Counted from the stretch's first letter, positions 45,754 to 62,543 are shown. The stretch is DNA of 64,000 bases from Bacillus testis (GCF_001243895.1 NZ_LN851186.1:2990981-3054980); one strand, 5' to 3'. Numbers and translations are program-made. The notes: generated by a model from the sequence alone, not told the origin.

Positions 45754-46749
45754 CTATTTAATATAGTCTTGGTAGGCAAGGAGAAAATTAAGCAGCTGCT
45801 CCTGGGTTTCAAGCGCGGTTTTCACGGATTCCCCTGAGCCGTTCACTTCGGCGGCTTTCAGCAGAGGTCCGGCGACTTTTTGTATGCCTTTATCGTCGCC
45901 AGTCGCTTGCTTCAATTGCTTTACTGCATGTTGGATACTGGCATCATGATTCTCCTTGGCAGCCAGCATATGTGCAGAAGAAGAAGTGGCCAGTTCCCGG
46001 TAAAGAGTGCGTACAGCCTCCAGCTCTTTTGCTTCTGCTGGCGTAACCTTCCGGCCTTTAGCTGTCTCTAAGGAAAACTCCTTCCAGTAGGAATCGATGC
46101 CTTTATTGCGGTACTCCTGGGCGATCCGTTTCGTTCGGGCCAGATTATCGCCGGCAAAAAGCAGCACGTAATACTTTTCCTGCTGTACAAAAACAATGGC
46201 TGGCATGCCTTTGGAATGGAATAGCTGCTTTCCTTTTTCGGCTGCTTCTTTATTGCTGAACACTCCTCCCTGCACCATGGATATCTTCAATGGCGAGACA
46301 GCAACCGTTTCGCCCGCAGCCGGAGCAGGCACCGTTTCAGCCTGGTTTTCCAACAAGGCAGACGCTTCTTTGCTGGAAGGGTCTTTGCTGGTTATCGTCT
46401 TCAATGCTATATATGTAAACCCTGAACCGATCAACACAGCGATTGTCACAATAACGAATAAGTGTTGAATGCCCCTGCCTTTACGGAATACTTTTTTTTG
46501 CTTAACGTTCTCTGAAAAAATGGAGTTTTGCTGCTTGTTTAGCGCCGGTTCCTCCGCCGGCAGCTTCCAGTCAAACTCTATCTCGCCGGCATCCGCCGGA
46601 GTTTCTTGCATTTCTTCCACCGGCTGGACTGGCTTTTGTTCAGCGGCCTCCTGCCTGTCCGGCGCTTTCGCTGATTTCCCCTGTTTTTTCGGTTTAATGT
46701 CCTCATTTAATGTGATGGTAATGGTATTTCTCCGCTCTAGCTTGTCCAT
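45754..46749 (-). CDS. spoIIB: SpoIIB-like SPOR-domain septal protein
   Basis: 331 residues. A cytosolic charged N-terminal part (1-90) is followed by one membrane helix (about 98-116), then a SPOR-type domain (about 155-225: ISMVQGGVFSNKEAAEKG...YYVLLFAGD) and a helical tail. The layout and the position beside maf match B. subtilis SpoIIB, which localises to septa and helps engulfment. GGGGGGA precedes the ATG. It follows the second prepilin gene by about 100 bases on the same strand with only a weak hairpin and a T8 tract between. Confidence 0.85.
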   Translation of the reverse strand: MDKLERRNTITITLNEDIKPKKQGKSAKAPDRQEAAEQKPVQPVEEMQETPADAGEIEFDWKLPAEEPALNKQQNSIFSENVKQKKVFRKGRGIQHLFVIVTIAVLIGSGFTYIALKTITSKDPSSKEASALLENQAETVPAPAAGETVAVSPLKISMVQGGVFSNKEAAEKGKQLFHSKGMPAIVFVQQEKYYVLLFAGDNLARTKRIAQEYRNKGIDSYWKEFSLETAKGRKVTPAEAKELEAVRTLYRELATSSSAHMLAAKENHDASIQHAVKQLKQATGDDKGIQKVAGPLLKAAEVNGSGESVKTALETQEQLLNFLLAYQDYIK

Positions 46750-46852
46750 GAGAATCCCCCCTTCTCCCGGCTTTTGCCCATCGTATCACAGAGAATAAAA
46801 AAAAGAACAAGACTTTTGTCGTCTCATCCCTAATAGCTTTCGCCAAATTCTC

Positions 46853-47293
46853 TCATTTATCGATGACATCCTCTTTAGCCAGCTTATGAACACTGACAGC
46901 CGTACGTCCATCATCTCCGCATAAATTCCGTTTGTCGCCGTGCATGCACACTTTGGATACCGTTTCGCCTTCTGTCGTTAGATAACTAGTATTGTAGCGA
47001 TCCCACATCGCCTTAGTATCAGGATCTTTAATACCTTCGATATATTTTTGCTCGACCAGCAAGTTATACGTAATTTCAGCAGGAACCTCTTCTTCATGGA
47101 CAATCAAGTCCTTTATATAAAAGGCAGCAGCATCCTTAAGAGCCAGTGCATTCGCCACATAAGCCTGCTTCCTCATCCCATCGATGGTTTTCAGGAAAGT
47201 CGGGACAGCGATGGCAGCCAGTATACTCAGGACGGCCATCACAGCCAAAACCTCTATTAAAGTCAATCCTCTCTCATTTTTCGCAGCCGCCAC
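46853..47293 (-). CDS. Type IV prepilin with a cysteine pair
   Basis: 146 residues. The class III signal NERG|LTLIEVLAVMAVLSILAA (cut after G9) is followed by the hydrophobic helix that packs the pilus core. The globular part has YIEGIKDPD, shared with the other large pilin at 50573, and two cysteines (about 117 and 125, CMHGDKRNLC) likely to form a loop. GTG start, AAGGAG 9 bases upstream. Last pilus gene before spoIIB. Confidence 0.9.
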   Translation of the reverse strand: MAAAKNERGLTLIEVLAVMAVLSILAAIAVPTFLKTIDGMRKQAYVANALALKDAAAFYIKDLIVHEEEVPAEITYNLLVEQKYIEGIKDPDTKAMWDRYNTSYLTTEGETVSKVCMHGDKRNLCGDDGRTAVSVHKLAKEDVIDK

Positions 47294-47341
47294 GTTCCCC
47301 AGCTCCTTTTTCTCTCTGATTGCTTAGGAAATATTTCTTTG

Positions 47342-48034
47342 TTATTGATCGCTGTCTTCGTGATTATTGAAGGGATTTGCCTTTCGTCCCGGTTGTGGCT
47401 TGTCCATTGCCGGCAGATCCTTCTCTAAATCTTGGAGGGCAGGCGCATAGTAAGCAGAAACAGTTAGGCTGTAATCCAAAGGAGCTGCCGACTGCTCGAT
47501 CGACGTTACTTCTTCTTCCCCCGTAAACGTAAGATTATCAATGGTCAATATCCGTTGCATGCCTTCAATCGTCGACAAAAAGGCATTCAATTCTTTATAA
47601 GTGGGCGATTGGACATTCAACGTCACCGTCATCTTTTGCAACCCTTCTACTCCTGGTTGGGCAGCAGAGACGGTATTACTTTCTCCTTCCCCACCTGTTC
47701 CGTCTTCGGAGAACGACATATTTTGAACGAAACTGTTGGAAATCGTTTCGGCTTTTTCAATATTCATTACAATTTGTTGGACAAGAGGCTTTACCGGCAG
47801 TTTCTTCTGCAGCTGGGTACTTTTCTCAAAGGATACTTCCTGAACCGGCTTTGCTTTTGATTGCAATGCAGCCACGACATTTTCCTGATTGCGAAGCTCC
47901 TGCTCTTTCAGAACGATTGAATTCTGCATAGGGTATACTTTCCAGAAGAACAGGACTGCGATGACGATAGCTGCCAAAAGGGACGCACCCACCACGATCA
48001 GCATCTGCTTCTTCGATAGAGAGGCATTCATCAT
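47342..48034 (-). CDS. pilO: PilO-like T4P alignment protein
   Basis: 230 residues: a cytosolic start, one membrane helix (about 11-31), a coiled coil (about 38-75), then a ferredoxin-like domain (VTLNVQSPTYKELNAFLSTIE). It is the usual partner of PilN. Its ATG overlaps the pilN stop (ATGA), and AAAGGAG lies 7 bases away. The acidic C-terminal tail ends in NNHEDSDQ. Confidence 0.83.
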   Translation of the reverse strand: MMNASLSKKQMLIVVGASLLAAIVIAVLFFWKVYPMQNSIVLKEQELRNQENVVAALQSKAKPVQEVSFEKSTQLQKKLPVKPLVQQIVMNIEKAETISNSFVQNMSFSEDGTGGEGESNTVSAAQPGVEGLQKMTVTLNVQSPTYKELNAFLSTIEGMQRILTIDNLTFTGEEEVTSIEQSAAPLDYSLTVSAYYAPALQDLEKDLPAMDKPQPGRKANPFNNHEDSDQ

Positions 48035-48786
48035 TCACCATCTCCTTTCGATTCGCCGGGTGAACTTCCTTGTTCAGAGGGCTGCGCTTGCTTCTGGATA
48101 AACTCTTTATTCAACTTCACCTCATATTGGGCGGTATAACGAGGTAAGTATTGGCCGTTTTCCAATTGATCAGTTGTTCCTGTGCCATGGACGGATTGCT
48201 TCTTCTCGCTTTCTTGTTCTGGATCTCCAGGAACAGGGCCGTTATCTTTTTTGCTCTCTTCGTTCTCTTGTTGGACATCATCTTCAGTCTGTGTTTCAGC
48301 TTTTATGGCTGGTTTCGTTGACAAAGAGGAAAGTTTGGCATCACGGATCCATTTCGAATGTACAAGATCATCTAGATATTGTGCAGACTGTCTAGCTGAA
48401 TCGAATTGAACAGTTAACTGGACATCTCCCTCAGAAACATAGGAAAAGTCCATAAAAAATCCCCTTTCAGGCAACAATGACACCAGCACTTTCAATAAAG
48501 GAACCGTCTTGATCGGATACTTTTCAGACCAATCAACCAGCTTCTGCAGCTGCACAAAGGAATCAGCCTTCTCATTGCTATCCTGTTTTTGTTGTTCAAT
48601 GATCGCCAACTGCTGAGCGGATTGAATTTGCCGCTCAAGATGAGCAACATGCTGCTTGTCACGATTGAACATCCCAAACAAGTAAACGGATGCACCGATT
48701 AAGACAACCAGTACAACACCTAACAAAATAGCGAATAAATAGTGTTTCGGCTGTTTTTTGGGAAGAAGGTTAATTTCAATCAGCAT
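48031..48786 (-). CDS. pilN: PilN-like T4P alignment protein
   Basis: 251 residues. The N-terminus MLIEINLLPKK is the conserved PilN peptide that binds PilM. One membrane helix (about 17-38) and a coiled coil follow, then a ferredoxin-like domain. A charged insertion (about 165-200) and an acidic tail are extra. It abuts pilM and overlaps pilO. Confidence 0.87.
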   Translation of the reverse strand: MLIEINLLPKKQPKHYLFAILLGVVLVVLIGASVYLFGMFNRDKQHVAHLERQIQSAQQLAIIEQQKQDSNEKADSFVQLQKLVDWSEKYPIKTVPLLKVLVSLLPERGFFMDFSYVSEGDVQLTVQFDSARQSAQYLDDLVHSKWIRDAKLSSLSTKPAIKAETQTEDDVQQENEESKKDNGPVPGDPEQESEKKQSVHGTGTTDQLENGQYLPRYTAQYEVKLNKEFIQKQAQPSEQGSSPGESKGDGE

Positions 48787-49782
48787 CTATAGCCCCCCTC
48801 TCAAGCCGAGGCCTGCTACAGAATAATAAGAAGAAACTTGCTCAATATCGCCAAGCGCTTGCAGTCTTTCGTCACCCAACCAATTCAGTTCCATAGGGAA
48901 ACGTTCTTTTAAATTCTTCTCGATTCGAGGCATAAAAGGATGGTCGCCGAACAAAACCACTCTGGTCACTTCGTTCAGGCTATTATTCATATTATATTTA
49001 TAGAAAGAAACCACTCTTTCGATTTCTTTATAGACATCTTCCATCAATTGAAAATAATCCTCTTCGTCCCCGTTCATCACCCAACGATAGTTCCCTTCAT
49101 CAAGCGGTTCCCTTTCCCATATTTCCTGGTCAGCCGGAATGAGGATATGGCGTAAATAGAGCGGAGTATCGTCGGAAAAGATGGAAATCATGACGCCATA
49201 CAAGCCAAACTGCAAAATAAGAAGATGTTCCCCACGCTGCGGCAAATCTAACTGATGGTACAACCGGTAAGCCGCCAACGAAGATATATCTGCCACCACT
49301 GGCGTTAATTTGCATTGGGCCAGCAACTGCTGGTATTGAAGAATCACCTCTTCTGCAGCAGCAAACAACAGAACCTCTTTTTGTCCGTCGGCTTCCCCCA
49401 GAATATACGTATCAAACACAGGTTCCTCAAAAGGCAAATGAATGGAAGTCCCCAATTGCAGATACAAATACCCTTCTATTTCATCTTCATTCACTTCCTG
49501 GTCAATCATAATCTTTTTCATCACAACAAATTGATCCGGCACCATAAAACGGACCTGCCTTCTATTGATCCGCCAATCGGCTACGCATTGGTCAAGGATT
49601 GCTTTCAATGTCTCAATGTCGATGATTCGGCCACCCCTGACAATTCCCGCTGGCAATAAAAACTCACCAGATTTGTGGATGCTCGGCAGTTTGCCCGGCT
49701 TCATTTCGGCATATCGGATGCTATGGTCAGTGATTTCAAGATTGATTGTTTTATTGCTTCTGTTGAAGAGAGAGAAAGCCAT
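48787..49782 (-). CDS. pilM: PilM, actin-like T4P assembly ATPase
   Basis: 331 residues of the FtsA/PilM fold: INLEITDHSIRYAEMKPGK near the start, the FVVMKKIMID region, and SVAGLGLRGGL at the end. It sits on the cytosolic side and binds the PilN tail. The ATG at 49782 has AAGGAG 7 bases upstream; the longer frame lacks support. The pilM-pilN-pilO order is the standard one. Confidence 0.9.
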   Translation of the reverse strand: MAFSLFNRSNKTINLEITDHSIRYAEMKPGKLPSIHKSGEFLLPAGIVRGGRIIDIETLKAILDQCVADWRINRRQVRFMVPDQFVVMKKIMIDQEVNEDEIEGYLYLQLGTSIHLPFEEPVFDTYILGEADGQKEVLLFAAAEEVILQYQQLLAQCKLTPVVADISSLAAYRLYHQLDLPQRGEHLLILQFGLYGVMISIFSDDTPLYLRHILIPADQEIWEREPLDEGNYRWVMNGDEEDYFQLMEDVYKEIERVVSFYKYNMNNSLNEVTRVVLFGDHPFMPRIEKNLKERFPMELNWLGDERLQALGDIEQVSSYYSVAGLGLRGGL

Positions 49783-49807
49783 AATAAGTCTCCTTACATA
49801 TGTATTG

Positions 49808-50563
49808 CTATAGCAGCACGCCAAAATACCACTGGACAATGCTGGCGCCGAAATAATAAGAGGTCAGTGCACCAAGGGCGATAAAAGGGCCAAAAGGAAC
49901 GGGCTGCTTTTTCTTCACTACGCCCGCTGCCATTAAGATGATGCCAATCACCGCTCCATAAAAAACGGAGAAAAACAGAGCCAAAAGCGTCAGCTTCACG
50001 CCAAGTGCCAGCCCCAATACAGCAAACAGCTTGATATCCCCGCCGCCCATGCCTCCTTTGCTGACAAGCGCAATCAACAGCAGCAAGGCAAAACCGACAA
50101 TTGCCCCCAACAGCGAGTCAATCGGATTCAATGAATCTAAAAAGAGCATGAGGACGAGAAAAATGCCGGCAAACACGATTAAAATTTTGTCAGGAATAAG
50201 CATATACGCCAGATCCGAAACCGTCACAATGACCAATAACGATATCAGCGCATAAGCAAAAAGAAGTTCACTACTCCATCCAATCAACAAAGGGGAAATA
50301 GCAAACAACACACCCGTTAATAATTCCATCAACGGATAAAGCGGAGAAATCGGAGCCTTGCAGCTCCGACATTTCCCCTTCTGTATGATATATGAACCAA
50401 CCGGGACCAATTCACCGGCACTTAATACATGCTTGCACTTCGGGCAGGAAGAGCGCGGCTTCACTATTGATTGTTTCATAGGAACGCGCAACCCTACTAC
50501 GTTATAGAATGAGCCGAGTACTAGGCCTAGGGTGAAGAGATATAGACTGATTAAAAGAATCAT
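49808..50563 (-). CDS. pilD: Prepilin peptidase
   Basis: 251-residue membrane aspartic protease that cuts and may methylate prepilins. The N-terminal zinc-type cysteines C40, C43, C65 and C68 are present. The catalytic aspartates are D117 (SDLAYMLIPD) and D176 (GGGDIK). It takes the chromosomal place of B. subtilis comC and may also serve the competence pseudopilus. The ribosome site is poor, suggesting coupling to the pilin gene 9 bases upstream. Confidence 0.95.
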   Translation of the reverse strand: MILLISLYLFTLGLVLGSFYNVVGLRVPMKQSIVKPRSSCPKCKHVLSAGELVPVGSYIIQKGKCRSCKAPISPLYPLMELLTGVLFAISPLLIGWSSELLFAYALISLLVIVTVSDLAYMLIPDKILIVFAGIFLVLMLFLDSLNPIDSLLGAIVGFALLLLIALVSKGGMGGGDIKLFAVLGLALGVKLTLLALFFSVFYGAVIGIILMAAGVVKKKQPVPFGPFIALGALTSYYFGASIVQWYFGVLL

Positions 50564-50572
50564 AAAATATAC

Positions 50573-51145
50573 TTATTTACCTTCTGGTTTTGGAGGTTTT
50601 GTATTATCGGCTATACTTTTTCTTGTCAACTCGTTTGATTCAATTTTATGAGTAGTAGAGTTTTCACTAAATAAAGCAAATGCAGCGCCACCTGAAGTTT
50701 GTATACCCCTATCTTTCTTTCCTTCCCCATTATTTATAAGCTTTACTGCAGTGATCTTACCGTCTGTTACTTCAACATAAGAACCGCTTGGAGCAGCACT
50801 TGGAATAGGTTTCGTTGTATCATTTACTCCTGCCTCATATTCACCGCCATCAGGGTCTTTAATCTTTTCAATATAGTTTTCATCATATAAATATTGCAAC
50901 GACAAATAATATTGATCCGTGGTTAATGTTTTATCTGCGGTAACCGCTAAACGTGCCGAACTGATCATCTGCTCAGCATTGGCAATATGTGCATCTTTCT
51001 TGGTATTATCCAAAAGCCCGCCGATGCTTGGGATGGCAATTGCCGCGATGATGGCAAGAATAACGACGACAGCCAATAGTTCGATCAGCGTCAAGCCCCG
51101 TTCGTTATTCAGAGTATCCCTTAGTTTCTTCATTAATTTTTTCAT
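50573..51145 (-). CDS. Major-type type IV prepilin
   Basis: 190 residues. NERG|LTLIELLAVVVILAIIAA (cut after G17) is a textbook class III signal with the E5 of the mature pilin. The globular part has YIEKIKDPDGG, as in the other large pilin. AAGGGAAG precedes the ATG. Its place between pilC and pilD and its size make it the best candidate for the main subunit. Confidence 0.93.
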   Translation of the reverse strand: MKKLMKKLRDTLNNERGLTLIELLAVVVILAIIAAIAIPSIGGLLDNTKKDAHIANAEQMISSARLAVTADKTLTTDQYYLSLQYLYDENYIEKIKDPDGGEYEAGVNDTTKPIPSAAPSGSYVEVTDGKITAVKLINNGEGKKDRGIQTSGGAAFALFSENSTTHKIESNELTRKSIADNTKPPKPEGK

Positions 51146-51249
51146 TTACTTCCCTTCCCTCTAGTTCATTTTACTTACTACTATTACCTTATTAATTATA
51201 CAATAAAATACATTAATTAACATATTTTTCTTTTTCATCTATTGTAAAA

Positions 51250-52461
51250 TTACTGTTTGTTCACCTGGTTGAATATATCGAACATAGGCACCATGATGGA
51301 GATGACGATGGTCCCGACGAGCGCTGCCAGGATGACGATCATTAATGGCTCGATGAGCGATTTCAATTGGTCGGTGACTACCTCCACTTCACGCTCATAG
51401 AAGTCGGCCACTTTATTGAGCATCGTGTCGAGCGCCCCGGTCTGTTCGCCGATGGCAATCATTTGCGTGACAAGCGGCGGAAAGGCCCAGTGCGCTTTCA
51501 TCGGCAGCGTGATCGATTGCCCTTTCTCCAAGGCGTCGCGCGATTCTTTCACCACGTTTCCGATCACTTCATTGCCGACAACTTCCTCCACGATATTCAT
51601 GGCCTGCAAAATCGGCACCGATGAGGAAAACAAGGAACTTAATGTTCTTGTCATCCGTGCCAACACTGCTTTTTGCATCATTTTGCCGAAGACCGGCAGC
51701 CGGAGTATGAACAAATCAAAATAATATTTCGTCCTGCTGTTCTTGCTGAAAAAAGAAATAAAAGCAATCAGTGCAATCAATATAATTACAAGGACATACC
51801 AAGCCGACTGCATGAAATGGCTGGCTTTCAGGACGAACACAGTGATGGCGGGCAAATCGCCGCCAAAATCGGCGTACATATCGACAAATGTCGGCACAAT
51901 GGCCACCAACAAGAAAATCAGAACAGCAATGGCCATGATGCCCACTACGACGGGATAAGCAAGCGCCGACCTAATTTTCTGCTGGGTCGCATGCTGTTTT
52001 TCATAATGGCCAGCCAACCTGTCCAGTGATTCATCCATATTCCCTCCGGCTTCTCCGGCACGGATCATATTGATGAACATAGGAGCGAATATGCGTGTGT
52101 GTTTGGAACTGGCGGCTGAAAAGGGGTTCCCTTCCCGCAAATCTTGTTCGATATCCAGAAGCGCAGAACGCAGATGTTTATTTTCGGTTTGCTCAGCCAG
52201 GATGCGGGTTGTATCGACCATCGTCACGCCGGCCTTGAGCAATGTTGAGAATTGCCGCAGGAAAATGACGAACTGGTGAAGTTTGACCGGATTGCCGATC
52301 GTAATATTCTTGGATAGAACTGATTGCTGGACTTCTTCTATGCTTGTGACTTTAATGCCGGACTGGCTTAATTTCACCACTGCTTCGCGCTTCGAACTGG
52401 CAACAAGGTTCCCTTGGGTTTTCCCTTTGCGGTCCCGCCCTGTATATTGGAATTTGGCCAT
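51250..52461 (-). CDS. pilC: T4P inner-membrane platform protein PilC
   Basis: 403 residues: two T2SS-F domains, each followed by membrane helices (about 170-190, 220-240, 375-397). Family stretches are FLRQFSTLLKAGV and MIRAGEAGGNMDESLDRLA, repeated as MIAIGEQTGALDTMLNKVA. It couples the ATPases to pilin insertion. It abuts pilT. Confidence 0.96.
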   Translation of the reverse strand: MAKFQYTGRDRKGKTQGNLVASSKREAVVKLSQSGIKVTSIEEVQQSVLSKNITIGNPVKLHQFVIFLRQFSTLLKAGVTMVDTTRILAEQTENKHLRSALLDIEQDLREGNPFSAASSKHTRIFAPMFINMIRAGEAGGNMDESLDRLAGHYEKQHATQQKIRSALAYPVVVGIMAIAVLIFLLVAIVPTFVDMYADFGGDLPAITVFVLKASHFMQSAWYVLVIILIALIAFISFFSKNSRTKYYFDLFILRLPVFGKMMQKAVLARMTRTLSSLFSSSVPILQAMNIVEEVVGNEVIGNVVKESRDALEKGQSITLPMKAHWAFPPLVTQMIAIGEQTGALDTMLNKVADFYEREVEVVTDQLKSLIEPLMIVILAALVGTIVISIMVPMFDIFNQVNKQ

Positions 52462-53502
52462 TTATTCCACCTTTTTCCCGATGAATGGATCTGCCGCTTC
52501 TTTGGTAATGATTCCTTTTTGGACAAGTTCTTTAATACTGCTATCCAATGTATGCATTCCCTGCGCCCTTGATGTCTGCATAATGTTCACAATCTGATGG
52601 ATTTTTTCATTGCGGATCAAATTGGAGACAGCAGCATTATTAATTAGGATTTCCGTAGCTGCTGTACGGCCCTTTTTGTCGGCTGTAGGGAAAAGCCGCT
52701 GCGACATGATGGCGACCAATACAGATGCCAACTGGATGCGGATCTGCGGTTGCTGTGCCGGCGGAAAGACATCAATAATCCGGTCGATCGTCGACGGGGC
52801 ACTCGAGGTATGAAGCGTACCTAATACCAGATGGCCGGTTTCGGCAGCCGTAATGGCCGTATGGATTGTTTCCAGGTCGCGCATTTCGCCGACAAGAATG
52901 ATGTCTGGATCTTGGCGCAAAGAAGCGCGCAAGCCGTTTGCAAAATTGCCTGTGTCGAATCCTACCTCACGCTGATCAATGATGCAGGTATTATGTTTGT
53001 GCAAATATTCAATCGGATCTTCCAATGTAATGATATGCTTGCGCATCACCGTATTCATATATTGGATGATAGCTGCGAGCGTCGTACTTTTGCCGCTCCC
53101 GGTCGGCCCCGTAACCAAAAAGAGGCCCTGCGGCTTATCCGCCACCCTCTTTAGGATGAGCGGCAAATCCAATTCTTCAAGTGTCGGTATTTGGGTGGGG
53201 ACAATCCGGACGGCCAACGCAATGCTGGACCGCTGCTTATAAGCATTAACCCGGAATCGGGAAATGCCTTGTACGGCATAGGAAAAATCAAGCTCGCCCC
53301 GTTCCTTGAAAACCTCCCACATTCCCTCAGGCACCATCGTCTTTGCCATTTGCTCTGTTTCTGCCGGCATCAGCACATGCTTTCCGTATTTTTTCAATTC
53401 CCCATTCAGCCGCATGATCGGGGGCACACCTACGGTCAGATGGACATCCGAGGCTTTTAGTTCATAGGCGGCTCTTAAAATTAAATCGACTGTTTGTTTC
53501 AT
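52462..53502 (-). CDS. pilT: T4P retraction ATPase PilT
   Basis: 346 residues. Walker A GPTGSGKST is at 132-140, IILVGEMRD from 201, and the His box GHLVLGTLHTSSA follows. The C-terminal AVSNLIRNEKIHQI corresponds to the AIRNLIRE motif needed for retraction. Its presence shows the pilus can be pulled back, as in twitching or DNA uptake. It is 10 bases from pilB and abuts pilC. Confidence 0.96.
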   Translation of the reverse strand: MKQTVDLILRAAYELKASDVHLTVGVPPIMRLNGELKKYGKHVLMPAETEQMAKTMVPEGMWEVFKERGELDFSYAVQGISRFRVNAYKQRSSIALAVRIVPTQIPTLEELDLPLILKRVADKPQGLFLVTGPTGSGKSTTLAAIIQYMNTVMRKHIITLEDPIEYLHKHNTCIIDQREVGFDTGNFANGLRASLRQDPDIILVGEMRDLETIHTAITAAETGHLVLGTLHTSSAPSTIDRIIDVFPPAQQPQIRIQLASVLVAIMSQRLFPTADKKGRTAATEILINNAAVSNLIRNEKIHQIVNIMQTSRAQGMHTLDSSIKELVQKGIITKEAADPFIGKKVE

Positions 53503-53512
53503 ACGTACCCCT

Positions 53513-55174
53513 CTATTCCAAAATCGCAGCCCGTAAAATTTCTTCTGTCGTCGTCAATCCTTGCTTTACTTTTAATAATCCGTCATCAATAAGGAAAACC
53601 GTCTTATTTTTTATTGCCAGTTCCTTAAGTTTCGTGAATGCTTCGCCATTGATGATGGTCCGCTTCATTTCATCATTGATCACCAGGATTTCGTGGATAG
53701 CGATCCTTCCTTTATAGCCGGTCATATTGCAGGATGCGCATCCTCGGCCGCGCGTGATTTTATCGATTTTCATTCCCCGTTTGGCAAAAATCTCAACCTC
53801 ACGTTTCATGGGCTCATGTATTTCTGCGCAATCCCGGCAAACTTTGCGGACAAGACGTTGGGCCACCACACCGCTCAAGGCCGATGCCACTAAAAACGGC
53901 TCAACCCCCATATCCATCAATCTAGTAACCGTAGACAGAGAATCATTTGTGTGGATGGTGCTTAAAACCAGATGGCCCGTAAGTGAAGCGCGTATCGCCA
54001 CTTCAACCGTTTCGCGGTCACGGATCTCTCCGACCATGATGATATTGGGATCCTGGCGAAGGATAGAGCGCAGGCCGGTTGCAAATGTCATGCCGGTCTG
54101 ACTGTTAACCTGAATTTGGTTGATGCCTTCCAGCTGGTATTCAACGGGGTCCTCAACTGTTATAATATTGACTTCTTCGTTGTTCAGCTTATTAAGGGCC
54201 GCGTATAGTGTCGAAGATTTCCCCGACCCTGTCGGACCTGTGATCAAGACAATACCGGTCGGCTGCTCGATCATGGAATGGAACCGCTGCAGATTGAGCT
54301 TATTAAATCCCAGGCGGTCGAGATCATTGAGCGATGCGCTCATATCCAATATCCGCAAGACAATTTTTTCGCCATAGATGGTCGGCAGCGTCGATACACG
54401 GATATCCACGGGCCGGAATTCAAGCATCATTTTGATGCGCCCATCCTGTGGAATCCGGTGTTCCGTAATATCCAATTTGGCCATGATCTTTATCCGGGCA
54501 ATCAACACATTTTGCATATGGCGCGGCAGCACACGCTCAGTTCTGAGGACACCATCAATCCGGTAACGGATGACAAGCTTGGTTTCCTGGGAATCGATAT
54601 GGATGTCACTGGCCTTTTGGGTAATGGCATTTAAAATAATCGAATTGACCAAGCGGACAACAGGCGAATTCTGTTCGACACTCTCTTCTTCCTGGCTATC
54701 CTGATTGACTGGAGCACTCGATAGAATCTCTTCCAACCCTTCATCATCATCGTAATATTTAGTGATTGTCCTTAAAATATCATCTTTTGTGGCAATGGCC
54801 GTTTCGATTTCAAAGCCGGTGGATAAGCGCAGATCATCAATCGCATAGAAATCCATCGGATCTGCCATCGCCACGTATAATTTATCTGCCTCTTTCTTAA
54901 GCGGCACAATCAAATTTCTTTTAGCAATTTGCTTTGGCACCACACTGAACAATGACGTATCGAAGGGATATCGATACAGGCTGACATGAGGAACGCCCAA
55001 TTGGAACTCGAGCACTTCGATCAATTGCTGCTCTGTAATAAACCCTTTTTGCAGCAAGGCATCCCCTAGCTTTTGTTTGGGCGTTTTCTCTTCTAATGCC
55101 TTTTGCAGCTGTTCATTTGTGATTAAACCGGATTCCACCAATAGATCGCCGAGGCGCTTCCTTAGTTGTGGCAT
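53513..55174 (-). CDS. pilB: T4P extension ATPase PilB with MshEN domain
   Basis: 553 residues. The N-terminal part has two tandem MshEN-type repeats (about 7-30 and 35-58: RLGDLLVESGLIT and KLGDALLQKGFIT). The ATPase has Walker A GPTGSGKSS at 313-321, an Asp box, IIMVGEIRD, GHLVLSTIHTND, and the zinc tetracysteine CRDC...CASC. The ATG at 55174 has GGGTGA upstream; the longer frame lacks family similarity. MshEN domains bind cyclic di-GMP in other PilB/MshE proteins. Confidence 0.95.
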   Translation of the reverse strand: MPQLRKRLGDLLVESGLITNEQLQKALEEKTPKQKLGDALLQKGFITEQQLIEVLEFQLGVPHVSLYRYPFDTSLFSVVPKQIAKRNLIVPLKKEADKLYVAMADPMDFYAIDDLRLSTGFEIETAIATKDDILRTITKYYDDDEGLEEILSSAPVNQDSQEEESVEQNSPVVRLVNSIILNAITQKASDIHIDSQETKLVIRYRIDGVLRTERVLPRHMQNVLIARIKIMAKLDITEHRIPQDGRIKMMLEFRPVDIRVSTLPTIYGEKIVLRILDMSASLNDLDRLGFNKLNLQRFHSMIEQPTGIVLITGPTGSGKSSTLYAALNKLNNEEVNIITVEDPVEYQLEGINQIQVNSQTGMTFATGLRSILRQDPNIIMVGEIRDRETVEVAIRASLTGHLVLSTIHTNDSLSTVTRLMDMGVEPFLVASALSGVVAQRLVRKVCRDCAEIHEPMKREVEIFAKRGMKIDKITRGRGCASCNMTGYKGRIAIHEILVINDEMKRTIINGEAFTKLKELAIKNKTVFLIDDGLLKVKQGLTTTEEILRAAILE

Positions 55175-55213
55175 ACTATCACCCACATTTTTCAAATTTC
55201 CGCAGGGCAAAGA

Positions 55214-56560
55214 TTATTTTTTGGCATCTTTCGAATCATCAGGCTTTTGCCCATTGTCTTCTTTGCTGTCCGCTGTTGTTTTCTCTTCTTGTTCCGTTTC
55301 TTTTAAGCGATCATCATCTGCTTGTTTTTCATCCACAGCTGGATCGGACTCTTCATCGTTTTCTTCAGCTTCATTTTGGCCAGCTGTTTCGTCGGCTTTG
55401 ACTGCGGGCACAGACAGACTGCGCAACTCAATCGCCGGAACTGGCGGATAGAAATCTTCAGAAATCAGCTCTTTCTTTATGGCAGAGCCGGATTCATCAT
55501 AAATTTCCCTGAAAATCTTGATCATCTGCCCCTTTTGCCCTGGCTTCTTCACTTTTGTCAATCCGGCCGGCAACGAAGAATCGTATTGAACAATCGTCTT
55601 CGGCTCAAAAAATTGCTGCTCTTTCCCGATGACTGAATATCGGTACAGCAGAGGGCTTCCTTTCAACATGACGCTAAGGAATCCCTGCCTGTAGCTGAAA
55701 GCGAGCGTATACGAAGAAGCATTTTTATTGGCAAAAACCAAATCCAATCTATCTTTCGGCGACACTTTCGCTTCATAGCCCAATTTTGCATAAGAAGGCA
55801 AAGAAGCGCTAATATTGCGTTCAAGGATCGTAAAATTCGTCGGTAGAATCGCTCCATAAACAGCTGAAGCGATCATATTGAGCGTTTTGGGGCTATAGGC
55901 GTCCGTACCGCTGTCTTTAAGGGCTTTCTCAAGTGAGAATGTGCTTTTTCCTTTGATTGTCAGAGCAGGCACAGCCTTGACGAAGCTGGCCAACTCTTTA
56001 TTGTCGGATGGCGAATGGATATCCGCCTTTGACAGCGCTTTATCCTGTCCGCTCTGATCCAATAAGAAATCTTCCAATTGATACGTTTGTTTTCCGCCGT
56101 CAAGCTGGCTTGCTTTGGACGTTAATTCCTGCTGTAGGCGCGTAACATTGTAAGCATCCGGATTGAGGCTATAAGATGTATCCTTCATCTGTTCGGCCAG
56201 GGCTTGCCGGTCAACGATGACAACCATTCCATTCGCTTTGCCGGCAGTGGCGGATGTCAGCGTCTCCGATATATTAAATTGAAATATTGAATTATCTATT
56301 TGATAGGATCGCTCCTTGAACACGAACGTGATGGCTGTGCCTTTCTTCCATTGCTCAGCAGCACCCTGCAGCATTCTCTCGGCCTGCTGCCTTGTCTTTC
56401 CAGCGATGTCATAGGTTCCTACTTTTGTATTCTCAGCAAACAGGCCCTCTTCTTTAAAGAAATCATCATATGCTTTTACGCCGAAATACGTAAAACTAAA
56501 TATAAATGCCGTCGAGACAAATAATAGTAAAAACACTTTCACAACATGTGTGATCTTCAA
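55214..56560 (-). CDS. VanW-like protein with G5 domain, pilus operon
   Basis: 448 residues: one membrane helix (about 8-28), a peptidoglycan-binding-4-like region (about 45-190), then a VanW-like region (about 220-320: NMIASAVYGAIL...TILERNISASLPSY). A G5 domain follows (about 335-375), then a long acidic, likely disordered tail. The conserved cysteine that usually precedes the VanW helix is absent. The start is TTG with AGGGG 8 bases upstream. The outward wall-binding layout suggests it guides or anchors the pilus through peptidoglycan, which is inference. Confidence 0.75.
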   Translation of the reverse strand: MKITHVVKVFLLLFVSTAFIFSFTYFGVKAYDDFFKEEGLFAENTKVGTYDIAGKTRQQAERMLQGAAEQWKKGTAITFVFKERSYQIDNSIFQFNISETLTSATAGKANGMVVIVDRQALAEQMKDTSYSLNPDAYNVTRLQQELTSKASQLDGGKQTYQLEDFLLDQSGQDKALSKADIHSPSDNKELASFVKAVPALTIKGKSTFSLEKALKDSGTDAYSPKTLNMIASAVYGAILPTNFTILERNISASLPSYAKLGYEAKVSPKDRLDLVFANKNASSYTLAFSYRQGFLSVMLKGSPLLYRYSVIGKEQQFFEPKTIVQYDSSLPAGLTKVKKPGQKGQMIKIFREIYDESGSAIKKELISEDFYPPVPAIELRSLSVPAVKADETAGQNEAEENDEESDPAVDEKQADDDRLKETEQEEKTTADSKEDNGQKPDDSKDAKK

Positions 56561-56581
56561 CTATAACGCCCCTTTAACTGG

Positions 56582-57334
56582 TTACGCTTCAACATGCATC
56601 GACAAGTCCACAATGACACTTGGATCGCCGTTTTGCGCTTTCTTAATATCCTCCACTGCCAAGATTGTCCCCTCGGTGAACAGTAAATCCCCATCTTGAT
56701 TCTTGATGTCTTTTTTGACGCGCTTTCCTTCCAACAGCGAGATTTGTTTCTCTCTTAAAGCCGCCTCCACATCAAGCAAGCCAGCTTCATTTTCAGCAAC
56801 AACCCCTTCAGCCTGCTGTTCCTCCTGGGAACCTGCCAACAGAGATTTCGCATCCGTATAATAATGGTTTTCAGCATCATCGTTTACGATGATGATATCG
56901 CGGCCATAGGTTAAAACAGCTTCCGATGAAATAACGACTTCATGGTCTGCCAGTTTCATTGTCGCTCCAATAATGCTGCCATTCTCTTCATCTACAAAAT
57001 ATTCGATAATTTCACCCAGCAATTGGCCTTTACGGGTAATGACTTTTGTATTTAAGATCTTGATTTTTTTATTGACCAGCTGGTTTGCAATTGGAATTTC
57101 ATTCAAATCTATAACGGCATTTTCATTGGCCACTGTGACGGCATATTCACCGATCCCGATTATTTTCCTAAAAGGAATGGCCCTGACACTTACCTGCCAG
57201 TCTTCATGGTCAACCGTCAAAAAATCGACGGTTCCCTTTTCTGGATTGATTACCAGTGATTTTACTTTCCCTACTTCTGTTCCGTCATTAATGCTGATAA
57301 TAGGCAATTCGATAATCTGTGCACTATTTTTCAT
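56582..57334 (-). CDS. PRC-barrel domain protein, pilus operon
   Basis: 250 residues, no signal or membrane helix. Two PRC-barrel repeats: about 8-85 (DGTEVGKVKSLVINPEKGTV) and 90-165 (RKGQLLGEIIEYFVDEENGSI). A third, weaker unit may be at the end. The ATG at 57334 has AAGGGTG upstream. PRC barrels act as adaptors in RNA processing, photosynthesis and division; the role here is unknown. It is cotranscribed with the VanW and pil genes. Confidence 0.75.
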   Translation of the reverse strand: MKNSAQIIELPIISINDGTEVGKVKSLVINPEKGTVDFLTVDHEDWQVSVRAIPFRKIIGIGEYAVTVANENAVIDLNEIPIANQLVNKKIKILNTKVITRKGQLLGEIIEYFVDEENGSIIGATMKLADHEVVISSEAVLTYGRDIIIVNDDAENHYYTDAKSLLAGSQEEQQAEGVVAENEAGLLDVEAALREKQISLLEGKRVKKDIKNQDGDLLFTEGTILAVEDIKKAQNGDPSVIVDLSMHVEA

Positions 57335-57396
57335 TTTTTCCACACCCTTATATTTTCGCTATCAACCAATAGTACCATTATTTTCTACTATTTATA

Positions 57397-58842
57397 CTAT
57401 TTTTTACTATTTTGCAAGAATTGTTCTGTTATATAATTCAATTGGACTAAAAGCATAGGATACCTATCGAATCTACTTTGGAGTTCAACAAGCAATTCTT
57501 CCAATTTATCGAATTGCTTGGAGCGGATATATAATTGAATCAATTCGATGCTGAATACATAATACGCTTTTGCGGACAGATCGTTGTTCAAGTAGCTTTT
57601 AATAACCGCTTCCGCATCCCATTGGCTCTTGGTGGCAACCGTCAAACGGATATGTTCCAAAAATGTATTCACTAATTGCTTTTGCCACTGTGTTTCATCA
57701 TTGGGTTCTGAAGGAATCGCTTCACTTTCCGCGCTGCCTTCCAATTCGGCCAACTCCATCCATTCCATTTCTTCAATCACGGCTTGTACAGGAATTGGGA
57801 AAGCAGGGACTTCGCTTTCTTCCACTACGTTCTCAGTTGGTTCTATCAGCCATTCTTCTTCATCCCTATTCTCTTCTTTCTCTATAGGCGCTGATTCTTC
57901 TATAGGAAGAGAATACCCATTTGTTGGTAGAACCTCAGCAATATCCGTCTCTTTTATCTCCATTGTCTTTAAGTTTTGCCTATCATCATGCTTTTCTTCG
58001 TCTGCCATAAGAAACAATTCCTCGCTATATAAAGAATCCTCTTCATCCATCTCTGCCAATATCTCTTCTAAAGGCGATATGAACGCTTCCTGGCCGCCCT
58101 CTTTTTCTATGAAAACTAGATCGGACACCAGATCATCAGACGGCAGCTCCAACGAGGCAGCGGCTTCATCCGTCTCTGCAGCAAGCAAAGATTCCTCTTC
58201 CACTATTTGAATGTCCTCTAGATTTTCCAACATGGGAATCACTTCCTCTTCTAGAGGCCCTTCACTGACAATGAATACATCACTGCTGTTTTCCACCTGC
58301 TCTTCCGTATGGATTTCCTCTGCAACCAAATCTATGTTTTGATTCTCTTCTGCTAGATTGTTAACAGGCAATATATTCTCCTCCTGAACGATGCCGCTAT
58401 CTTTATCTTCCACAAAAACCATTTCGTGCTGTCCGCTAATCATTTGTTCGGATATTCCAGCAAAATCTGAAGGAAGTTCCTGATCTGCAGAATCGATTTG
58501 CTTTTTAAGGAAAACGTTCCGTGCCGATTTCACACTGGGCGGCTCCTGTGAAGGAGAAAAGAAGTCTAGTTCTTCTTCCGTATTGACCCCTGCGAATAAT
58601 GCCGTTTGCAGCCTATTGGCTAATACATATGCCAACAACAACAAAAGCAGGATCAGCAAAGAGATTGTTTTCCACATAGGCATAATTTCAGACGCCCATA
58701 CTCCCAGCAGCGAAAATACAATTGAGAAACCCAACAGAAAAAACTTTCCTTTCAAGGATAGCCCTGCCGGTAAAAAATAAAGAAAAGGCACTAAAATGAC
58801 TGCCGCAATGACTGTAAATATCACAATTTCGATTTCCCTCAC
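57397..58842 (-). CDS. Membrane-anchored acidic protein, first gene of the pilus operon
   Basis: 481 residues from the GTG at 58842; the frame is open to 58866 and the exact start is unsure (no strong ribosome site). Two or three membrane helices lie in the first 75 residues. A very acidic stretch of about 290 residues rich in Glu, Asp and Ser follows, then a helical C-terminal part (about 385-480: LSAKAYYVFSIELIQLYIRS) like a TPR. I recognise no family. The layout is reminiscent of FimV/HubP pole organisers, but without LysM this is only an analogy. Confidence 0.7.
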   Translation of the reverse strand: MREIEIVIFTVIAAVILVPFLYFLPAGLSLKGKFFLLGFSIVFSLLGVWASEIMPMWKTISLLILLLLLLAYVLANRLQTALFAGVNTEEELDFFSPSQEPPSVKSARNVFLKKQIDSADQELPSDFAGISEQMISGQHEMVFVEDKDSGIVQEENILPVNNLAEENQNIDLVAEEIHTEEQVENSSDVFIVSEGPLEEEVIPMLENLEDIQIVEEESLLAAETDEAAASLELPSDDLVSDLVFIEKEGGQEAFISPLEEILAEMDEEDSLYSEELFLMADEEKHDDRQNLKTMEIKETDIAEVLPTNGYSLPIEESAPIEKEENRDEEEWLIEPTENVVEESEVPAFPIPVQAVIEEMEWMELAELEGSAESEAIPSEPNDETQWQKQLVNTFLEHIRLTVATKSQWDAEAVIKSYLNNDLSAKAYYVFSIELIQLYIRSKQFDKLEELLVELQSRFDRYPMLLVQLNYITEQFLQNSKK

Positions 58843-58880
58843 CTCAGATTCCGGAAAACATTCCAATTAATAAGACTTTT

Positions 58881-58911
58881 GTCATATTTTGCGCTGATTT
58901 TATTGTATAAT
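58881..58911 (+). promoter_or_regulatory. Candidate promoter of the minor pilin operon, SigE-like
   Basis: GTCATATT (58881-58888), a 15-base spacer, TGTATAAT (58904-58911). The -35 equals the SigE consensus; the -10 fits SigE partly and also fits a SigA TATAAT. It lies 31 bases before the pilV start. The sigma factor is not settled. Confidence 0.45.
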
Positions 58912-58942
58912 AAATTAACAAGATTGGAAAGAAGTGACTTTA

Positions 58943-59443
58943 ATGAAATTTCTTTTATTTTTTACCAACAAAAAGGGATTTACACTGCTTGAAGTCCTTC
59001 TGGCAGTGGCGTTGCTCGGTGTTATAACGATTACGGTCATGGGCTTTTTTTCACAGACATTCCATTTCGCCAAACAAAATGAAAACCGGACAGTTGCCGT
59101 CAATGTAGCGAGGAGTGTACTGAATTATGCCGAAAGCCAGGACTTTGAAAGCATGAATAATTTACTGTCCGCAAATGGCACCATTGGCAAAAATGGCGAA
59201 AAAACAATTCAAATAACCGCGGACAATTGCCAAATGCTCGGATTGAGCGGAGTAAATTGCCAAAAGAGGATCGATTCGAAGATCAATGATGTCATATACA
59301 TAGGCACGATCACGATTGCCAGCCGACAACCTACGAATAACCGTACAGATGCTTCTCTATATAAGTACCTTTTGGATGCAAAAGTCGAAATAAAATGGAA
59401 TAAACAAGACATTACGGTCAAGGGAGTCATTAAAAATGAATAA
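58943..59443 (+). CDS. PilV-like minor prepilin
   Basis: 166 residues. The signal NKKG|FTLLEVLLAVALLGVIT is a class III prepilin peptide with phenylalanine first and E5 kept. The globular part has two cysteines (about 95 and 104). A GTG at 58934 is possible; the ATG at 58943 is preferred. Overlaps the next gene by 8 bases. Minor pilins prime assembly or form the tip. Confidence 0.85.
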   Translation: MKFLLFFTNKKGFTLLEVLLAVALLGVITITVMGFFSQTFHFAKQNENRTVAVNVARSVLNYAESQDFESMNNLLSANGTIGKNGEKTIQITADNCQMLGLSGVNCQKRIDSKINDVIYIGTITIASRQPTNNRTDASLYKYLLDAKVEIKWNKQDITVKGVIKNE

Positions 59444-60068
59444 ACTGCTGCTTTCCCAAAGAGGGATGACCCTAATTGAATTGCTGCTGTCCATCGTTCT
59501 TTCTTCCATTGTCCTTGCAGTTGTGTATTCCTTGTTCGCAACCGGCTTTGAGCTGTACCAAAAGGTGAAAGTCGAAGCGGAACTGCGGGACGATGCTGAT
59601 TATATAGCCACAATGGTCATGAATGAATTCTATGAAAACTCACCGCGAACCATTGAAAACTGGCAATCTCAAGACGGAAAGAGCCTTGGAATCCAACTTG
59701 TCAGGGCCGGTGAAAAATACGTAGAAGAATATATTGTCGAAGACCAGCCACAAAAAGACTTGTTGATTGATGTCTACTTTACAAAAGAACAGCAAAATAA
59801 AAACACATTGCATATCAGAAGAAAAAATAGCAACACCGACCATACAGTGGAGATTGATACACCGCATTCTTCCATATTGGATGAAGATCCAAAGGATAAC
59901 CTCTCAAAGTCCATCATCTCAGTCGGCACCTCTGGAAGATGCTTGGAAGGTAAATGCTCATCTGGAACAATTGAAATGACGCTGGTCCTTCAATCGAATA
60001 AAAAAGGGATTGCGGGTTCATTCATCAAAAGAAAACCTATCACATTCAAGAGCTCGTTCGGATTTTAA
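59436..60068 (+). CDS. PilW/PilJ-like minor prepilin
   Basis: 210 residues. SQRG|MTLIELLLSIVLSSIVLA is the prepilin signal. The region RDDADYIATMVMNEFYENSP resembles GspJ/PilW proteins. It has a CLEGKC loop near 170. Starts within the end of the PilV-like gene and is followed 15 bases on by the PilX-like gene. Confidence 0.85.
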   Translation: MNKLLLSQRGMTLIELLLSIVLSSIVLAVVYSLFATGFELYQKVKVEAELRDDADYIATMVMNEFYENSPRTIENWQSQDGKSLGIQLVRAGEKYVEEYIVEDQPQKDLLIDVYFTKEQQNKNTLHIRRKNSNTDHTVEIDTPHSSILDEDPKDNLSKSIISVGTSGRCLEGKCSSGTIEMTLVLQSNKKGIAGSFIKRKPITFKSSFGF

Positions 60069-60083
60069 CAATGGAGGAAGCCC

Positions 60084-61673
60084 ATGAAAAATAATGAAAA
60101 TGGATCTTCTTTATTAACGGTTTTATTGATGCTTCTTATTTTTACAGTACTTGGATTGGTCTTATTATCCGTTACGATCCAGGGCAGCAAACGCACGGAA
60201 TATCGGGAGACAGAAGTGAAGGAAGAGATTGAGCATATGACTTCCCTGAAAGAAGCAGTTGCCCAAATCAAGAACTTTGTGGATGAACATAATGATCAGC
60301 TAAGCTCAAAAACGACCGAGGACGCTGTCTTAGGCGATTTTCTGAAACAAATGAATGATGCACATAGCGATTCCTATACCATTACCGACGTTTCCAAACA
60401 ACCGCAATATAATGTTGGTGAAAGCCAGACAAGAGTGCTGCTGGCCAAAAGTAAAAAGGATGCGTTTGAGCAGCTTGTCTATATCACAGCAATGCCAAGC
60501 TTCATGAAATACGCTGTCGGATCACAAAGCAATCTTTTCATCAATGGAGCCGCTTCGATAGACGGCGACATCTATGCCAAAAACAAATTATTTGTCAGCC
60601 AAGAGGCCAATTATGTGTACAATTCGGAAAAGCTGAGCGTGGCTACAGGGCTTCCTTCGCTTAGCGCAGCAAGCACCATCTTTCTAGAGGATAATGCTTC
60701 GTCACGTTACCGGTTCTGCGCATCCAGCTGCTATCAAGTGAATGAAAAAACGGATCTTCCTTTCCAACTGCAAACCAGCCATTGGCAGGACAAAAGCAAA
60801 GCGATCAGAGCATTTTCTCCTGATAAAACACCGGTCATCAATAAAGATCCATTCGTTGATTTAAAACTGAAGCAATCGTTTCTCGATAAACTATCGTTGG
60901 CGGGCGTTGATCTTTCTGGGCTATCGGAAGACAGCAGCAAAGAAGAGATTAGCAGAAGATTAAGTGAGGAGATTTCCAATTATCCTGATAATAACAAGAT
61001 AACGAGCTTTACCGAAATAGAGAAAAAAGGGCCAGGCAATTATTTTTATGAAGGATATACCAGCGAAAATGGACCGGATGCTTTCATCGACACTGATTCA
61101 TTGAACATCGGCAGGGACCATTGGCTCATCATTAACGGTAATGCCAAGTTTTCAAACGATATAACGATAAACGGCAATGTTTTAGTCACTGGCGACATTT
61201 ATTTCGAAGGTTCTCATACAATCGACTCTGTCATGTATGCACTCGGCAAGGCAACCTTTACCGATACAGATATTCGAAATCCAGCCACGGTTGATCCTTC
61301 ACAGCCAACAGGTTTCATTATGATGGCTATGGAAGGCCTACAGCTGGCCATCTATGATAAATTTGCCTCTTCCAGCAAGAATAATACAATCAATGGTTTT
61401 CTTTATACGGACAGTTCGGCCGATATTTATGGCGTTGGTTCCCTTGTCCGTGTGAACGGCAGCATTTTTGCCAAACAAAATTTGAGCATTAATGCTTATC
61501 AAGGCGAAGCGAGTGGAGAGAAGGAACGGATTTCCTTCACACCAAGTTCATTGGAGACTGCTTCCCGCTTGAAAGTAAAAAATAATAAACGGCTGTTCAT
61601 CGGCAAATCAAACGCATTGCCGAAAGTAACCAAGTTCGATGTGATTACGGACAATATCATCAAAAATAATTAG
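60084..61673 (+). CDS. PilX-like large pilus-associated protein
   Basis: 529 residues. The N-terminus NENGSSLLTVLLMLLIFTVLG resembles the PilX/GspK signal, with G7|S8 as cleavage site but no E5. The passenger is much larger than usual PilX. Its C-terminal half has repeated short beta units (LIINGNAKF, ITINGNVLVTGDIYFEGS, YGVGSLVRVNGSIFAK) like a bactofilin or right-handed beta helix. AATGGAGGA precedes the ATG. It is the last gene of the operon; it may cap the pilus tip. Confidence 0.8.
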   Translation: MKNNENGSSLLTVLLMLLIFTVLGLVLLSVTIQGSKRTEYRETEVKEEIEHMTSLKEAVAQIKNFVDEHNDQLSSKTTEDAVLGDFLKQMNDAHSDSYTITDVSKQPQYNVGESQTRVLLAKSKKDAFEQLVYITAMPSFMKYAVGSQSNLFINGAASIDGDIYAKNKLFVSQEANYVYNSEKLSVATGLPSLSAASTIFLEDNASSRYRFCASSCYQVNEKTDLPFQLQTSHWQDKSKAIRAFSPDKTPVINKDPFVDLKLKQSFLDKLSLAGVDLSGLSEDSSKEEISRRLSEEISNYPDNNKITSFTEIEKKGPGNYFYEGYTSENGPDAFIDTDSLNIGRDHWLIINGNAKFSNDITINGNVLVTGDIYFEGSHTIDSVMYALGKATFTDTDIRNPATVDPSQPTGFIMMAMEGLQLAIYDKFASSSKNNTINGFLYTDSSADIYGVGSLVRVNGSIFAKQNLSINAYQGEASGEKERISFTPSSLETASRLKVKNNKRLFIGKSNALPKVTKFDVITDNIIKNN

Positions 61674-61718: not shown

Positions 61719-62543
61719 TTATTCCATCGCTTTCTTTCTTTTAAGATAATCAATCGTACTGGTATCTTCGAGAATCGTTGCCACATCATATGGCGTCTCG
61801 TTCTGATTGTTTGCTTTGGTCAACTGGCTACTGTCTGCCTGCAACAAGAGATCATAAATATCTGTACGCTGATTTTTAATAGCCTTAACAAACGATGTGT
61901 TCCCTTCCTTATCGACCTTATGGATGAGCGAAGGCGCCTTTTGTAAAATGAACGAGACTGTCTCCCGGTCCCCTCTTATGGCAGCAGCGTGCAGAATGGT
62001 TTCGCGCTGTTTGTTAACCGCACGGATATTTGCATGATGCTTGATCATTAGGGCAGCCATGTCTTTGTCACCATGCAGCACTGCATGGTGAAGCGCCGTA
62101 TTTCCCTGTTCGTCTGTTTCTTTCAAGCCTCCTTTATTTTCTTCCATAAGCCGGTCAAAGACGCCTAAACGTCCCTTGACTTTTTTGTCGCTCCACACCG
62201 TTACGTGGATATGGTCGACCATGAGGGCAGCGGCATTCAATATTGCCTTATCTCCCACCTTCGCACCGTAGTCCAATAAAATCGACGCGATCTGATATTG
62301 CTGGTCGGCCAAAGCTTCTTCTAGAGGATCAATTCCGTCTCTCTTTTCATTGGCCAATCCTTCATTGTCTGCAAGTACTGTTTTCACTGTATGGCGATCC
62401 CCATTTTGAATGGCATTGAACAATTTCTTTTGCTGCGATGCTAATTCTTCTTGGCTTGGCCCGCGTGTGGCCCAAAAAAACAACGCGAGAACCGCCGCAA
62501 TGCCGATGATGAGCGCCAATCCTTGTTTTAATCTCTTTGCCAT
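61719..62543 (-). CDS. Membrane-anchored ankyrin-repeat protein
   Basis: 274 residues: an N-terminal membrane helix (about 7-25), then four to six ankyrin repeats (TDEQGNTALHHAVLHGDKDMAALMIKH, NKQRETILHAAAIRGD, DKEGNTSFVKAIKNQ; fragments named, not full repeats). The repeats are probably outside the membrane, as there is no second helix. GGGAGAGGGAAAGG lies before the ATG. A binding partner cannot be named; it converges with the pilin operon. Confidence 0.85.
   Translation of the reverse strand: MAKRLKQGLALIIGIAAVLALFFWATRGPSQEELASQQKKLFNAIQNGDRHTVKTVLADNEGLANEKRDGIDPLEEALADQQYQIASILLDYGAKVGDKAILNAAALMVDHIHVTVWSDKKVKGRLGVFDRLMEENKGGLKETDEQGNTALHHAVLHGDKDMAALMIKHHANIRAVNKQRETILHAAAIRGDRETVSFILQKAPSLIHKVDKEGNTSFVKAIKNQRTDIYDLLLQADSSQLTKANNQNETPYDVATILEDTSTIDYLKRKKAME

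Follow-up and report, generated by a model that had tools for sequence, protein, structure and literature searches.

The region from 46853 to 61673 of the window, the 64,000-nucleotide stretch of the Bacillus testis genome that was analysed (GCF_001243895.1, NZ_LN851186.1:2990981-3054980), is confirmed at the level of its sequence as an intact monoderm type IVa pilus cluster. It is composed of two transcription units that diverge from a short intergenic region (58867..58942). The minus-strand unit, in which the largest gap between genes is about 104 bases, begins with the gene for a 489-aa protein and continues through genes for a PRC-barrel protein, a VanW/G5 protein, PilB, PilT, PilC, a 190-aa prepilin, PilD, PilM, PilN, PilO and a 146-aa prepilin. 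Three minor pilins form the plus-strand unit. A first-pass annotation of this DNA had listed the same Pil proteins, prepilins and minor pilins, and all are present as intact ORFs with family matches and catalytic motifs. Its two divergent operons also stand; the start that it gave to the minus-strand operon does not, since the operon begins further upstream with the 489-aa, PRC-barrel and VanW/G5 genes.

The extension ATPase gene pilB (53513..55174, minus strand) lies in an ORF that opens at 55210, with 55174 as the likely start, and encodes a T2SSE domain (PF00437, 456.7 bits) together with an N-terminal MshEN domain. The retraction ATPase gene pilT (52462..53502, minus strand) scored 478.6 bits against TIGR01420, for which the cut-off is 319.1, and its motifs are intact (Walker A GPTGSGKST, GEMRD and AxxNLIR). 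The platform protein gene pilC (51250..52461, minus strand) matched PF00482 (T2SSF, 212.5 bits) over two domains. Scores for both PilB and PilC were below the NCBIfam equivalog cut-offs. The prepilin peptidase gene pilD, or comC (49808..50563, minus strand), encodes both A24 domains (PF06750 and PF01478) along with the CxxC-x-CxxC, SDL and GGGDIK motifs. The genes pilM (48787..49782; ORF opening at 49839, likely start at 49782), pilN (48031..48786) and pilO (47342..48034) follow on the minus strand in their conserved order. PilM (PF11104, 70.6 bits) and PilO (PF04350, 25.4 bits, cut-off 22) score above the Pfam cut-offs and PilN (PF05137, 18.7 bits, cut-off 22.8) slightly below; despite that score, the identity of PilN is supported by where its gene lies and by its conservation, seen in 93 of 104 loci. 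Since pilB, pilT and pilC occur together in 104 related loci, the question of a chance assembly does not arise. Pfam-type searches of the cluster's proteins identified no member of the secretin (PilQ) family.

Class III prepilin signals of the form G/[L,F,M]TL[I,L]E are found in four proteins of the locus. The 190-aa prepilin (50573..51145, minus strand; ERG/LTLIELLAVV) has N_methyl and IV_pilin_GFxxxE matches, is present in 90 of the 104 pil-positive loci and is the probable major pilin. The 146-aa prepilin (46853..47293, minus strand; ERG/LTLIEVLAVM), also identified by family matches, is the last gene of the operon. With these lengths, neither can be described as large, as the first-pass annotation had it. 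On the plus strand, minor pilin 1 (58943..59443; KKG/FTLLEVLLAV) lies in an ORF that opens with a GTG at 58934, with 58943 as the likely start, and like minor pilin 2 (59436..60068; QRG/MTLIELLLSI) it matched PF07963. The third minor pilin (60084..61673) is 529 aa in length and lacks Glu5 (G/SSLLT); its assignment as a tip pilin is predicted from an AlphaFold model, with weak support from sequence.

The genes that open the minus-strand operon are less familiar. The 489-aa protein (57397..58866, minus strand) has a homologue in 59 of the 104 pil-positive loci, and PHROGs and Pfam searches returned nothing usable that would place it in a known family; its layout consists of N-terminal membrane segments, a long acidic middle and a helical C-terminus. 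The 253-aa PRC-barrel protein (56582..57343, minus strand; PF05239, 49.5 bits) occurs in 38 of 104. The 448-aa VanW/G5 protein (55214..56560, minus strand) scored above the Pfam cut-off for G5 and just below it for VanW, and is found in 95 of 104, usually directly before pilB. It is laid out with one N-terminal membrane helix and the VanW-like and G5 domains outside. A model of this protein (pLDDT = 86) is confident in the outer part, and its best matches in the PDB were G5 domains. The protein may serve to guide the pilus through the cell wall or to anchor it there. The VanW profile is common in distant genomes of the phylum, so VanW presence alone does not serve as a pilus marker.

Downstream of the cluster are a spoIIB-like gene (45754..46749, minus strand), maf, radC and mreBCD, an adjacency that had been noticed before and is seen in the sequence. 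The SPOR match of the spoIIB-like protein (16.5 bits) is below the cut-off of 21, and the assignment draws on its position and on synteny in most loci. Just outside the window on the upstream side are a Big_2/DUF5057 surface protein, a GAF-GGDEF diguanylate cyclase, folC, valS, ysxE and a spoVID-like gene; several of these neighbours on the folC-valS-ysxE-spoVID side carry presumptive names, given from position and established gene order. The B. subtilis order is valS-folC-comC-spoIIB-maf-radC, with comC alone between folC and spoIIB. The pil cluster fills that interval and is thus at the exact position of comC in B. subtilis.

Transcription signals were less informative. A terminator-like stem with a T run (46803..46831, minus strand) lies in the gap between the last prepilin gene and spoIIB; terminator-like sites in the region number 19 compared to 16.5 in shuffled sequence, so it is by position that this stem is supported. 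A sigma-70 promoter scan of the region gave 30 matches compared to 30.2 in shuffles, and the matches within the divergent intergenic region are at chance level. No pair of ComK boxes was found at the pil promoter, pilD or comGA. Since no pair was detected even at comGA, and pairs occur at 1 of 32 lone comC genes and 1 of 42 operon pilD genes, the ComK-box scan is uninformative.

The MshEN domain of PilB (NF053729, 65.5 bits, cut-off 38) raises the prospect of control by cyclic di-GMP. The published MshEN motif consists of two RLGxx...LxxxLxxQ stretches with a 5-residue linker (PMC5013675). In PilB, motif I ends in a lysine that replaces the glutamine important in MshE, motif II starts with a lysine, and the linker, at 4 residues, is one shorter than published. 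A lysine at the first MshEN motif position is tolerated in Thermus PilF (PMC11731258). Given the lysine for glutamine in motif I and the short linker, cyclic di-GMP binding by PilB is not assured. The diguanylate cyclase a few kb beyond the cluster has an intact GGEEF site. Counted by eye, such a cyclase lies beside folC in about 15 of the 20 pilT-positive loci with folC visible and in about 12 of the 29 pil-negative loci.

The AlphaFold model of the 529-aa minor pilin (pLDDT = 78.6) combines a long helix with a pilin-like sheet and an inserted β-solenoid. The model was searched against 350,542 PDB chains, and the best match was ComZ of Thermus thermophilus (PDB: 6qvi, E = 1.7e-4), which aligned over the whole length with a TM-score of only 0.22; the next matches were ice-binding proteins. 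In the published analysis of ComZ, its solenoid likewise came closest to an ice-binding protein and its pilin domain to GspK (PMC6561018). A comparison of sequence profiles with ComZ was not significant (E = 0.95), and a library of viral folds contained no match at E ≤ 0.001. The 529-aa protein shares with ComZ of the ComZ/PilA2 tip complex (6qvi, PMC6561018) a predicted plan of a pilin domain with an inserted β-solenoid, and as with ComZ its gene follows those of smaller minor pilins; however, sequence similarity is not significant and the TM-score is low. On this footing, the 529-aa protein is predicted to be a ComZ/GspK-like tip pilin.

Such a tip might suggest that the pilus works mainly in DNA uptake, with retraction by PilT and a ComZ-like tip receptor replacing or assisting the ComG pilus. 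ComZ is proposed to sit at the pilus tip and to bind DNA (PMC6561018), the 529-aa protein is predicted to be built like ComZ, and comEC and comK are both present in the genome. However, a full ComG system already provides for uptake, the type IVa pilus of Streptococcus sanguinis is dispensable for it (PMC7212644), and β-solenoid tips may equally bind sugars or surfaces. The scan also gave no ComK-box pair for the pil promoter, although comGA gave none as well. DNA uptake as the main function is a minority reading, to be kept in mind and not preferred.

The genome has a single PilD/ComC, a complete comG operon and, beyond the cluster, folC. The PilD of the pil cluster is the only A24 peptidase in the genome. 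The comG operon runs from comGA to comGG and has no peptidase gene of its own, which leaves PilD as the only candidate for processing of the ComG pilins. From these gene counts, PilD probably serves both the pilus and the ComG pilins, as had been proposed from the window. Four clear T2SSE ATPases are encoded in the genome: PilB, PilT, ComGA and a fourth at 547 kb.

The cluster is widespread. A PilM search identified 64 loci in named genomes, including those of Neobacillus, Cytobacillus, Mesobacillus, Metabacillus, Peribacillus, Robertmurraya, Domibacillus, Jeotgalibacillus and Pontibacillus, and in nearly all of them the same gene order leads into maf-radC-mreB. Within the order, PilT exceeded the curated cut-off in 110 of 150 genomes, and 39 of the 40 genomes without PilT have exactly one peptidase of the PilD/ComC type. 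Loci were compared from 39 PilT-less genomes and from 41 pilT-positive genomes, the latter sampled at about one per family. By eye count, the folC/maf-radC site holds 33 of the 41 pilT-positive clusters, and some of the other eight are cut by contig ends; in 29 of the 36 loci without pilB, pilT and pilC, also counted by eye, pilD is found at that same site. In a second order, PilT is present in 19 of 21 genomes and five of the ten clusters compared are at the folC/maf-radC site; in a third, the corresponding figures are 25 of 61 genomes and none of ten clusters. Internal stops that appeared in pilB and mreB of relatives were rejected, as these alignments extend past the gene starts from query ORFs that begin too far upstream.

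Relic loci, in which pilD is accompanied by pieces of the pilus set, were observed in four of the sampled genomes, one of which (G025) retains vanW, pilM, pilN and pilO, and also in Bacillus sp. OV166, Mesobacillus zeae and Neobacillus pocheonensis. Most of these relics have a shortened pilM of about 170–214 aa. A RadC and MreB tree of 48 loci, in which three genomes without PilT above the cut-off and with other pil genes were counted as pil-positive, requires at least 15 changes of pil state, at least 11 of which are forced by well-supported branches. That number is about what shuffled labels would need, and it is inflated by a sample of about one pil-positive genome per family and every pil-negative genome. 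In the PilD tree, for nine families, the ComC of lone or relic loci branches with the cluster PilD of the same family, with support of at least 80. In 14 of 16 families that have both states, the lone PilD/ComC has diverged further from the proteins of other families than the cluster PilD has, and the same holds for RadC in 8 of 11; the differences in PilD divergence are small in several families. This pattern suggests a mild relaxation of PilD/ComC after loss of the pilus.

The best reading of these comparisons is that a pilus was ancestral at the folC-spoIIB site and disappeared on many occasions, leaving pilD behind as comC. Change counts alone do not tell loss from gain; we infer loss from the one site, the one shared gene, the relics and the likeness of the second order. 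The survival of pilD as comC would follow from the continued need of ComG for a prepilin peptidase. The first-pass annotation had left it open whether the pilus was placed in this neighbourhood or kept in it, and the spread of PilT, the common site, the relics and the second order all favour the latter. Were the cluster instead a horizontal acquisition, made by this lineage or on several occasions, that landed next to a comC already in place, precedents could be named: the type IV pilus operon of Paenibacillus thiaminolyticus is on a predicted mobile element and in clinical isolates only (PMC9765702), and in one related order the cluster is elsewhere in the genome (loci L169-L178). However, most of the compared loci of the order share one site that recurs in the second order, the pilD that corresponds to comC of the lone genomes is inside the operon and not beside it, in many families the lone ComC branches with the cluster PilD, relic loci exist, and the ORF and Pfam results include no mobile-element genes at the cluster. 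Horizontal gain is accordingly improbable.

Less probable again is a tie to sporulation or cell shape, by which the pilus would work during spore formation. The neighbourhood that prompted this idea is real, and spoIIB, mreBCD, minCD, spoIVF and spoVID are conserved around the site; the link has no other support. In many genomes that neighbourhood encloses a lone comC, which is a competence gene, and the terminator-like stem lies between the operon and spoIIB. A protein-exporting pseudopilus of the type II secretion kind, to which the best or nearly best scores of several parts against Gsp models (GspF, GspE and GspM) might point, is the least credible explanation of all, as the operon has a PilM, a PilN/PilO pair and a dedicated PilT well above its cut-off, and PilT is absent from type II secretion systems (PMC9765702).

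The B. testis system belongs to a known kind of pil operon, and the first-pass impression of an unusual locus does not hold in view of the frequency of PilT in the order and of pil operons published in 2011. Extracts from the survey by Imam et al. (2011) describe such operons in Bacillus sp. NRRL B-14911 (B. infantis), Geobacillus kaustophilus/thermodenitrificans and Exiguobacterium, with pilT in many Gram-positive pil operons and, in Bacillales, a position beside a com operon as here (PMC3244431). The cluster had thus in part been described already in relatives. The folC-spoIIB site, the single shared peptidase and the lone comC as a remnant are absent from these extracts (PMC3244431), and the last of the three may be regarded as an evolutionary corollary. 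The P. thiaminolyticus Mbale operon has PilT, PilC, PilD, PilM, PilN, PilO and a PilB with MshEN, as does the present cluster; its authors expect control of the pilus by cyclic di-GMP and compared their operon to that of NRRL B-14911 (PMC9765702). That operon is on a predicted mobile element, in contrast to the conserved chromosomal site in B. testis. The Com pilus (ComGA-GG and ComC) differs in having no PilT, PilM, PilN or PilO, and its comG genes are elsewhere in the genome; PilD at the comC site is the ComC ortholog by position and by tree. The open-licence literature that was searched yielded no statement that a lone comC is the remnant of a pil operon, and no mention of VanW/G5 proteins or ComZ-like tips as part of Bacillales pili.

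Taken as a whole, a retractable monoderm type IVa pilus that shares its PilD, is ancestral at folC-spoIIB and has been lost many times is an account that we hold to be likely. PilD would cleave the prepilins, and PilB, acting on PilC and held by PilM, PilN and PilO, would polymerize the 190-aa major pilin. The three minor pilins would make up the tip, the ComZ-like 529-aa protein forming its outer end, and PilT would retract the fibre. Since a monoderm has no secretin, a wall role is proposed for the VanW/G5 protein, which probably passes the fibre through, or anchors it in, peptidoglycan. With the MshEN domain of PilB and the nearby diguanylate cyclase, extension may respond to cyclic di-GMP. 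The same PilD would process the ComG pilins, and where the cluster was lost, pilD would be what is left as comC. A bolder version, which we offer tentatively and would not expect to hold in full, is that the comC of B. subtilis-type bacteria is the last survivor of an ancestral pil operon lost independently some ten times or more in the order, and that the remaining pili have a ComZ-like DNA-binding tip and a peptidase in common with ComG. A single cell would then capture DNA with two pili, only one of them equipped with a retraction motor.

Pilus-like machines of Gram-positive bacteria have B. subtilis as their model, and surprise at a pil locus in this position mostly reflects a view centred on that species. 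Without a retractable pilus, B. subtilis could pass for the norm of the Bacilli; the absence of the pilus looks derived, with PilT present in most sampled genomes of the order. The many paired presences and absences at one site provide a natural experiment on gene sharing, in this case of PilD with ComG, and survival. The cluster also supplies candidate new parts in soil bacilli, namely a VanW/G5 protein that may serve in crossing a thick wall and a 529-aa pilin that may act at the tip as an adhesin or a DNA receptor.

The minor-pilin unit of the pil cluster ends with a gene for a membrane-anchored ankyrin-repeat protein (window 61719-62543), and weak homologues of this protein occupy the same position in the loci L118 and L142. 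Adjoining the cluster is a gene for a large surface protein with Ig-like Big_2 repeats and a DUF5057 domain, which occupies window 62619-63998 and runs on into L072, the stretch just right of the window (L072:3-2654). Two relatives (L118 and L138) have homologues of its Big part at the edge of the cluster; the protein is possibly an adhesin. A GAF-GGDEF diguanylate cyclase with an intact GGEEF motif follows (L072:2712-4490 on contig G000:C9), positioned between folC and the pil region.

Elsewhere, the sole Rfam match within the 64-kb window is an L21 leader RNA (RF00559, window 36441-36524) upstream of the rplU region. Another T2SSE ATPase, with a reading frame of 453 aa (G000:C9:547038-547883; loci L003 and L074), is distant from the pil and comG loci and is perhaps part of a Tad/Flp-type system.

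Many relatives keep the GAF-GGDEF cyclase at the same place, including some in which the pilus has been lost. Four relatives' loci (L066, L067, L069 and L110) retain pilD, a shortened pilM and pieces of pilN/pilO, while pilB, pilT and pilC are absent from them; these are apparently pil operons in decay.
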